From positions 1 through 22,654 of the IMG/VR virus record IMGVR_UViG_3300048834_000193: a stretch of 22,654 nt of DNA; one strand, written 5' to 3'. A program made the position numbers and the translations under genes. This document shows positions 14,806 through 16,139 of the stretch, in pieces (position 1 is the stretch's first letter; the number at the start of each line of letters is the position of its first letter). The notes under the pieces are model-generated. The model saw only the letters and a list, made by a program, of their open reading frames with translations, made no database searches and was not told where the DNA came from. Source of the stretch: a virus.

Positions 14806-15134
14806 AGCGCGACCGGCTCACAAACGATCCCGGCCAGTTTCTCGGAGTCCGTGAAATCCCTGAATTCGCCTAGCGACTCGTCCCATGGCGGAACCTCATC
14901 GCCGTTCGAGTAAACGTGCGTCAGGTTGCGGCCGTTCGTCCTACGTGGTGCCCGCATCGCGGCTTGGGCGGCGTGATACGCCTTGCGCTCGCCTGCCGTC
15001 ATGTTCTTGAACTGCGTTTCCCGACACAAATCCCAATGGTCGGAGCCGTCTGGATTAGTCGGGCACCATTTCCCGTTCGGAAGCCGCTTAAACCCTAGTT
15101 CCAAGCCACACTTCCGACAGGTCTTAGTATTCAT
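14802..15134 (-). CDS. Zinc-ribbon-like protein (110 aa)
   Basis: The N-terminus has a probable zinc site: C6-RK-C9 followed by C24, H33 and C37 ('CRKCGLELGFKRLPNGKWC' ... 'HWDLC'). The remainder is charged and helical (MTAGERKAYHAAQAAMR), then acidic (DEVPPWDESLGEFRDF). Start and stop both overlap neighbours by ATGA. It directly follows the replication-type gene, in the position where other phages carry a helicase loader or primase component, but it resembles neither. A DNA- or protein-binding accessory is plausible; function is unknown. Confidence 0.66.
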   Translation of the reverse strand: MNTKTCRKCGLELGFKRLPNGKWCPTNPDGSDHWDLCRETQFKNMTAGERKAYHAAQAAMRAPRRTNGRNLTHVYSNGDEVPPWDESLGEFRDFTDSEKLAGIVCEPVAL

Positions 15135-15703
15135 TGTCGGACGCCCTTAACGGCAGAGGCCGCCAATGCCGCTACAGCGCGCCGGTTTTCTTCATTTTTC
15201 GTTGAAAACGTCTTACGCGCTGGTAAAGACTCAGAGGTGCTATATGCACCAACGGAAGAAGAACGGAGCGGTAGTGTTTCTGATACTGCCTCTGATACTG
15301 CATCTGATTGCATTACAGGTGCATTACCAACCGCATTACCGGCTTTCTTTGCCCTGTGTCTGGCGACCCGCTCCCGGTTGAGTCGCAGCTTCTCGGTGCG
15401 GGTCACGATGTCCCGGTACAGGCCCGCGTTCAGGATCATCCAACCGCCGTCAACGCGCTCGATTCTGCGGCCATCATGCTCTTTGTTCGCCGATTCACCG
15501 TCTGGGCTTTCCAGCGTTTTGACGGCCGCAGTCGCTTCCTCAACTGTCACCATTGCCCGGTTTGCCAGGTTGCGGACGCTCGAGAATTGGGCGAATCCGT
15601 CCTCGTCCATTGCGGCGAGGAAGGTAATCCAGACGATGCGTGTTGGGTTCGGTTCAAGCCATATCGACGAGTCGAGGATCTTCGTATACAGCTTGTTGTA
15701 CAT
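15131..15703 (-). CDS. Replication initiator-like protein (lambda O / DnaD-like N-terminus)
   Basis: The protein begins MYNKLYTKILDSSIWLEPNP, then TRIVWITFLAAMDEDGFAQF and SSVRNLANRAMVTVEEATAAV. This is the winged-helix N-terminus of phage replication-organiser proteins, which bind origin repeats and recruit helicase. Residues about 105-115 (LRLNRERVARHRAKKAG) are strongly basic. A low-complexity linker follows (GNAVGNAPVMQSDAVSEAVS), encoded by short direct DNA repeats, then a Lys/Arg-Ala tail. Only a weak ribosome site precedes the ATG. A probable promoter and an operator palindrome lie upstream. It is the first gene of the leftward operon. The family call rests on pattern; the exact class (O-like or DnaD-like) is uncertain. 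Confidence 0.68.
   Translation of the reverse strand: MYNKLYTKILDSSIWLEPNPTRIVWITFLAAMDEDGFAQFSSVRNLANRAMVTVEEATAAVKTLESPDGESANKEHDGRRIERVDGGWMILNAGLYRDIVTRTEKLRLNRERVARHRAKKAGNAVGNAPVMQSDAVSEAVSETLPLRSSSVGAYSTSESLPARKTFSTKNEENRRAVAALAASAVKGVRQ
15180..15339 (-). other. Possible phage replication origin inside the initiator gene
   Basis: Within the replication gene lie three copies of GCATTAC (15310-15316, 15321-15327, 15333-15339; spacing 11 and 12 bases) and two to three copies of TCTGATACTGC[CA] (15279, 15291, degenerate at 15303). In the gene's reading direction these are followed by an AT-rich stretch (about 25% GC over 15186-15209). Lambda's ori has the same layout: iterons within the O gene, coding for the linker, then an AT-rich unwinding region. 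No DnaA box or replication data support it here. Confidence 0.4.
15279..15339. repeat. Short direct repeats (12-bp and 7-bp units)
   Basis: TCTGATACTGCC (15279-15290) is followed by TCTGATACTGCA (15291-15302) and a partial third unit at 15303. Next come three GCATTAC words at 15310, 15321 and 15333. They encode the linker of the replication protein. The 9-mer GCATTACAG at 15310-15318 is identical to the left part of the palindrome upstream of the gene (15726-15734). Confidence 0.75.
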
Positions 15704-15727
15704 TTCGATTACCGCTCGTTATGGCGC

Positions 15728-15748
15728 ATTACAGGGAATTACTGTAAT
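15728..15748. promoter_or_regulatory. Operator-like palindrome upstream of replication gene
   Basis: ATTACAG (15728-15734) and CTGTAAT (15742-15748) are perfect inverted copies around a 7-base spacer. The right arm overlaps the probable -10 box (15746-15751) of the leftward promoter, the classic position for a repressor site. The binding protein is unknown; the nearby Cro/CI-like protein or the replication protein itself are candidates. Confidence 0.55.
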
Positions 15749-15848: not shown

Positions 15849-16046
15849 TCAAGCAGCATCCTCCCGCGGGACCAGGTCCTCCAGCGGGATGCGCGTGCGT
15901 TCGTGCAATCGGCGCAGGTAGATACCGGACGGGAAGCTGCGGCCCGTGAGCCAGTTGTGGATCGTGGCCCGCGTCACGTCAATTTCTTCGGCAAGCTCGC
16001 CCTGTGAGACTCCGGTCAGGGTGAACCATTCGCGCAATTTGTCCAT
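15849..16046 (-). CDS. Cro/CI-type HTH repressor (65 aa)
   Basis: The protein MDKLREWFTLTGVSQGELAE continues EIDVTRATIHNWLTGRSFPS and GIYLRRLHERTRIPLEDLVP, an XRE-family HTH: helix 2 'SQGELAEEI', recognition helix 'TRATIHNWLTG', then a conserved 'L..L...T.IPLEDL' helix. It has no peptidase or dimerisation domain, so it is Cro-sized rather than a full CI. It is read leftward, opposite to the early operon, from a promoter whose -10 box ends 7 bases before the ATG. The mRNA should therefore start at or next to the AUG, without a ribosome site, as lambda cI does from PRM. It probably controls the divergent promoter pair. Confidence 0.82.
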   Translation of the reverse strand: MDKLREWFTLTGVSQGELAEEIDVTRATIHNWLTGRSFPSGIYLRRLHERTRIPLEDLVPREDAA

Positions 16047-16053
16047 GCCCGCA

Positions 16054-16082
16054 AATCTACGCCGTGCCTGCTATGGTGTCAA
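16054..16082 (-). promoter_or_regulatory. Leftward promoter of the repressor (leaderless transcript)
   Basis: On the minus strand TTGACA (16077-16082), a 17-base spacer and TAGATT (16054-16059) form a strong sigma-70 promoter. Only 7 bases separate the -10 box from the repressor ATG at 16046, so transcription should start at about the A of the start codon. Confidence 0.75.
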
Positions 16083-16118
16083 CGTCCATCGGCTGCGTAG
16101 CGAAAAGTATTTGACACC
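16075..16118. promoter_or_regulatory. Inverted TTGACACC sites: candidate repressor operators
   Basis: GGTGTCAA (16075-16082) and TTGACACC (16111-16118) are perfect inverted copies 28 bases apart, each containing one -35 box of the divergent promoters. The similarity continues past the -35 (TTGACACCnTnnCnGG in both), beyond what a -35 element needs, suggesting that one protein binds both sites. Confidence 0.5.
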
Positions 16119-16139
16119 CTGACCGGCAAGGCGTATTGT
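16111..16139 (+). promoter_or_regulatory. Strong rightward early promoter
   Basis: TTGACA (16111-16116), a 17-base spacer and TATTGT (16134-16139) match the sigma-70 consensus closely. Transcription should start near 16146, giving a short leader with a small hairpin (GCCC 16148-16151, GGGC 16157-16160) before the first genes of the early operon. Confidence 0.78.

Follow-up and report, generated by a model that had tools for sequence, protein, structure and literature searches.

Does the DNA that codes for the linker of a small replication-type gene also serve as an origin of replication? The question is raised by a locus in a 22,654-nucleotide stretch of viral DNA (IMG/VR record IMGVR_UViG_3300048834_000193, positions 1 to 22,654), referred to here as the window. 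In the initial annotation the locus was read as an origin lying within an initiator gene. Based on comparison with relatives, it is likely that the gene encodes an initiator of phage replication, belonging to a family not yet catalogued, and that its linker-coding DNA is the origin. The core of the earlier reading is thereby supported; it is corrected in that the iterons are direct and phased, the helix concerned is the one after the wing, and TCTGATACTGC belongs to a separate tract. The features of the locus are presented in Table 1.

Table 1. Features of the candidate origin locus, in window coordinates.
Feature	Position	Strand	Remarks
Putative initiator-like gene	15131..15703	-	ORF, 190 codons; winged-helix N-domain and linker
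Predicted continuous basic helix AGLYRDIVTRTEKLRLNRERVARHRAKKAG	15338..15427	-	codons 93-122; AF2 helix 93-122, pLDDT about 90 over residues 91-120
N109 codon	15377-15379	-	within predicted basic helix
V113 codon	15365-15367	-	within predicted basic helix
Iteron half-site 1, GTAATGC	15333..15339	-	candidate site
Iteron half-site 2, GTAATGC	15321..15327	-	candidate site; 12 bp past half-site 1
Iteron half-site 3, GTAATGC	15310..15316	-	candidate site; 11 bp past half-site 2; other reading frame
CAG-hexamer tract TCAGATGCAGTATCAGAGGCAGTATCAGAAACA	15275..15307	-	first CAG 10 nt past start of last half-site; score 16/16 vs codon-null maximum 15
AT-richest 150 bp of window	15186..15335	.	55% vs mean 37%; candidate unwinding region
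Upstream array, four GTAAT half-sites	15708..15748	.	15708-15712 (-), 15728-15732 (-), 15738-15742 (-), 15744-15748 (+); candidate autoregulatory site

The window protein matches nothing in Pfam, PHROGs or NCBIfam; for relatives, only a weak match to HTH_36 was obtained, in some of them. No hit at E<=1 was obtained by tblastn of the window protein and its relative L003 against INPHARED phages and plasmids. The AF2 model of the window protein (pLDDT 90) predicts a winged-helix N-domain, as the initial annotation had proposed from the sequence pattern. A fold search of the PDB returned winged-helix matches only, all of them weak. A weak fold match to a putative replication protein O of phage Min27 (E=0.013) was also obtained. 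Residues 109 and 113 sit in the long basic helix that follows the wing, outside the predicted recognition helix. The protein is a short form of 190 aa, without the C-terminal domain of longer relatives. Most relatives have about 230-340 aa, and forms of less than 200 aa are found in 14 complete relatives, that of the window included; C-terminal parts vary widely among relatives and are absent in the 14 short forms. A common downstream partner of the short forms was searched for and not found.

The window record overlaps another contig, 3300048930_000159 (2 mismatches over 8021 bases), and the gene is intact in the two contigs. The overlapping 35.5-kb contig, possibly incomplete, gave no match to DnaB or DnaC. 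The right arm codes for a helicase, a DNA methyltransferase, an Erf annealing protein, a YqaJ exonuclease and NinB. Two divergent TTGACA promoters are located at 16054-16139 of the window (16082-16054 on the minus strand and 16111-16139 on the plus strand), with inverted arms at 16058-16082 and 16111-16135, and a 65-aa repressor-like HTH gene (15849-16046, minus strand) adjoins them; together they are likely a lysogeny-type switch.

Relatives were collected by tblastn scans of IMG/VR, which gave 37, 77 and 80 loci, many of them on the same contigs, and one was added from an Acidobacteria MAG. About 70 relatives in metagenomic viral contigs were obtained; 70 distinct linkers were compared, and the 63 closer relatives were used in most tests. 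A half-site was defined as GTAAC, GTAAT or GTGAC, with GTRAYG counted in linkers. The shuffles reported below take no account of relatedness among loci. One 16-kb viral contig (3300036802_000310) carries two members of the initiator family, L018 and L045, in opposite orientation. In L006 and L032 the linker is replaced after residue 118 by a similar YVYYARxYDxxKIGFSRNPWSR segment, which resembles a domain of GIY-YIG or T5orf172 type; these two loci have no half-sites. L144-L161 form a separate winged-helix-like group (STWIKLHSSLTESSVWEE or MSFIKAHCELVTSSVWEG), found by profile match, without half-sites or tract.

The linker of the window gene contains three GTAATGC sites followed by repeats of TCAGATGCAGTATCAGA. 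The first element had been noted as three copies of GCATTAC at 11-12 bp, which are found as described. The heptamer GCATTAC has six copies in the window, half of which lie inside a 30-bp stretch of the linker. Half-sites 1 and 2 are read as GNA and half-site 3, in a different frame, as PVM. When amino acids were kept fixed and codons were drawn from the phage's own usage, three or more GTAATGC in the linker were seen in 1 of 20000 synonymous samples. The untargeted test for the most repeated 6-mer, which is too conservative for single genes, was not significant for the window gene alone (p=0.415), so the case rests on the relatives. The second direct repeat of the earlier description, TCTGATACTGC, occupies 15279-15289 and 15291-15301, and part of a third copy lies at 15303-15311; it does not represent iterons and forms part of the CAG-hexamer tract. 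The AT-rich stretch that had been claimed coincides with the AT-richest 150 bp of the window, and 15188-15207 reaches 75% AT. The turning point of the GC skew is near 16.6 kb, 1.3 kb from the site, and is uninformative on the origin because gene orientation also changes there.

Looking at the relatives together, the 63 linkers contain 181 half-sites, against 69.7+-6.5 expected under the synonymous-codon null. The sites occur in several frames and on both strands. Successive direct half-sites are mostly 10-11 bp apart, the next commonest distance being 21 bp, a pattern of helical phasing and not of codon spacing. About a quarter of the relatives have few or no half-sites in the linker, and some of these carry upstream sites only. 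According to the initial annotation, an origin in the linker would be contradicted by relatives that keep the linker amino acids and lose the DNA repeats; the opposite was seen, as linker residues change and the DNA sites are kept.

A second element, the (CAGNNN)n tract, follows the half-sites at a fixed distance: its first CAG lies 10 nt after the start of the last half-site in 30 of the 38 measurable relatives. A-ending codons for Ser, Ala, Thr and Val make up 166 of 249 in the tract vs 134 of 1154 in the N-domain. Its peptide differs among relatives, being EAEAEA, SDTDT, VAVAVA, VSVSDT or PVPVPGPEP, and in another frame QKQKQK or QIQIQ (L065, L121 and L134). In L015, L061, L068 and L113 it is found on the strand opposite to the coding direction. 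Duplex stability is lowest over the tract. An exact scan of viral contigs for (CAGAAG)n, with CAGAAGCAGAAGCAGAAGCAG as the query, gave at least 76 loci with full flanks. Among the listed matches with full flanks, 28 of 76 show, immediately 5' of the tract, a 6-mer present at least four times, compared with 3 for a control stretch. By eye, many of the listed genes have a basic helix and different repeats (TGTTCG, GTCAAC, GGGACA), and other listed matches are plainly unrelated low-complexity proteins; the scan therefore demonstrates enrichment, not specificity of the tract for initiators. A blastn search of phages with a composite tract query found nothing, for which low-complexity filtering is possibly responsible. 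A limited literature search, which does not exclude their existence, found no paper on EAEAEA tracts in phage initiators.

Half-sites are also concentrated upstream of the start codon. The relatives contain 146 of them in this region, vs about 32-35 in control stretches, and the upstream and linker half-site types agree across relatives to an extent reached by 0 of 20000 shuffles. Upstream half-sites are mainly inverted pairs and those of the linkers phased direct repeats. In the window the 9-mer GCATTACAG that the linker was said to share with the upstream palindrome is indeed found at 15310-15318 and 15726-15734. An inverted pair is present upstream in 34 loci, in 17 of which a TTGACA-like box lies just before it (shuffled mean 1.3). 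No sigma-70-like promoter was recognised just upstream of the window gene, though the array is present. Upstream of L017, L023, L034, L050 and L063 the TTGACA box and inverted pair are very near the start codon; the transcripts of these loci may be leaderless.

Each of the 119 columns of the N-domain was compared with half-site type, with 500 permutations. For pooled sites, residue 109 (N/T) is the best predictor of GTAAT vs GTAAC and residue 113 (V/non-V) the best predictor of GTAAY vs GTGAC, each with 0 of 500 permutations. Concerning residue 109, N is accompanied in the linker by 25 GTAAT and 14 GTAAC and T by 2 and 151; upstream, the respective numbers are 23 and 10 for N and 3 and 98 for T. 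For residue 113, linkers of proteins with V contain 16 GTGAC and 203 GTAAY, and those with another residue 31 and 7. In separate tests, where linker counts start after codon 119, residue 109 was still the best predictor for either set by itself, linker or upstream (0 of 500 each). For residue 113 the linker gave 1 of 500, and the upstream sites by themselves 146 of 500, which is not significant; there are few GTGAC sites upstream. The N/T state of residue 109 changes 8 times on the tree, and among phylogenetically independent pairs 3 agree and 0 disagree, a number too small for the sign test to reach significance. Eight further relatives show the same direction (linker, N109: 5 GTAAT and 6 GTAAC; T109: 1 and 18). 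One of them, L139, has N109 and no GTAAT; it also has A113 and three GTCAC. Because residues 109 and 113 share one predicted basic helix and track the sites, the initiator protein very probably binds in both places. This agrees with the earlier suggestion of one protein for the linker and the upstream site, as the two sets of sites switch together with these residues.

A DnaB domain was found in 11 of the 48 records searched, and 8 of these 11 have it on the same strand, no more than 2 kb downstream. In L024 and L025 the next gene downstream is DnaC-like.

Taken as a comparison of sequences, these data show constraint at the level of DNA, sites that covary with residues 109 and 113 both in the linker and upstream, a fixed spacing of the tract and helicase or loader synteny in relatives. 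It could be argued that the repeats are merely those of a low-complexity protein linker (GNA/PVT, SEAEAE), the DNA repeats following from the amino acids. Similar linker peptides do recur across relatives and the untargeted 6-mer test is not significant for the window gene alone, but the synonymous-codon nulls are far exceeded, the sites stand in more than one frame and also on the other strand, the CAG tract underlies the several peptides listed above, and the type of site follows residues 109 and 113. Contradicted by the codon tests, this explanation is most improbable.

The sites could also be bound by the protein for regulation or copy-number control (operator, titration, handcuffing), while the phage initiates elsewhere or otherwise. 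The operator-like upstream sites, with the inverted pair after a TTGACA-like box, would suit such a role, as would the short window protein and the absence of a DnaB or DnaC partner from the overlapping contig, and the incC locus of the F plasmid is a precedent for iterons that are not an origin (PMC13028717). The phased direct repeats of the linker, the fixed 10-bp step and the low duplex stability are nevertheless superfluous for simple regulation, and relatives show helicase or loader synteny; we regard a purely regulatory role as unlikely. Similarly unlikely is that the window gene is a decaying or repurposed initiator, in which the N-domain and the origin were kept and the helicase-recruiting part was lost. 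Its length relative to most relatives and the same missing DnaB/DnaC match are what would be expected of such a gene; against this, short forms recur in complete relatives, the window keeps clean half-sites, tract, spacing and upstream sites, and the gene is intact in two contigs.

In our best reading, the origin would lie inside the gene, as it does in lambda, its direct iterons would be phased in the manner of plasmids, and a site for autoregulation would precede the start codon. The winged-helix domain with its protruding basic helix (residues 93-122) would read GTAAT half-sites, and the three direct half-sites of the linker, about one helical turn apart, would load the initiator. One turn further on, the array leads into the (CAGNNN)n tract and the AT-rich stretch; melting would occur here, and one strand would be captured so that the helicase can be loaded. 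Through the half-sites in front of the start codon, the protein would keep its own production in check. Four parts of this scheme are inferred: that the protein binds the sites, that the DNA unwinds at the tract, that expression is autorepressed and that the window phage uses this origin.

In lambda the origin lies in the middle of O, and its iterons are imperfect 19-bp inverted repeats that bind O dimers and flank an AT-rich region (PMC7466680, PMC5043065). The candidate origin is likewise within the linker of the initiator gene, after an N-terminal DNA-binding domain and before an AT-rich region, and a helicase-loading gene or helicase is found downstream in several relatives. The lambda O-like order that had been proposed stands for the arrangement of sites; the iterons are direct, and the window protein has no C-terminal domain. 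Unlike the lambda iterons, each of which is an inverted repeat, the half-sites of the family are direct and about one turn apart; the family also has the CAG-hexamer tract after the sites and the same sites before the start codon, and no match to the O family was found in Pfam, PHROGs or NCBIfam. Iteron plasmids have direct phased iterons, and F has inverted copies before repE for autoregulation (PMC5043065, PMC13028717). The family resembles them in its direct, helically phased iterons (window spacings 12 and 11); inverted copies stand before the initiator gene in many relatives (34 loci), and the window has the array there but no recognised promoter. The family differs in that its iterons are inside the coding sequence, on a phage, with a protein family unrelated by sequence to that of F RepE. 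It combines the origin position of lambda with the layout of iteron plasmids. The DnaA-trio of oriC, with the motif 3'-(G/A)AT-5' repeated every 3 nt (PMC10797057), shares with the tract a short-period repeat on one strand, a fixed step from double-stranded initiator sites and a position near the candidate unwinding site. The tract has CAGNNN with a 6-nt period; the likeness is one of placement, and single-strand binding is putative.

The helix itself has another possible parallel. In bZIP basic regions a long basic helix reads short half-sites. The N-x-x-x-V spacing of the window helix and the A/V-type change with TTAC/TGAC-like sites look similar, as a resemblance only; the helix of the family projects from a winged-helix fold, and no zipper was seen. 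We tentatively propose, as a possibility rather than as the expected outcome, that the CAG tract is a general phage origin element for unwinding or single-strand capture, in a DnaA-trio-like role, common to initiators with different iterons, which would explain the EAEAEA-type linkers of many phage replication proteins, and that the reading of the half-sites by a bZIP-like basic helix follows a simple code of two residues.

The locus introduces an uncatalogued initiator family whose putative recognition code is readable from natural variation. Its candidate origin is concealed in a coding region, and the short element that follows turns up beside other iterons as well. Should this tract serve for unwinding, the origins of many uncultured phages could be located by simple scans of sequence, and the repetitive linkers found in replication proteins of phages would gain a reason at the level of DNA.
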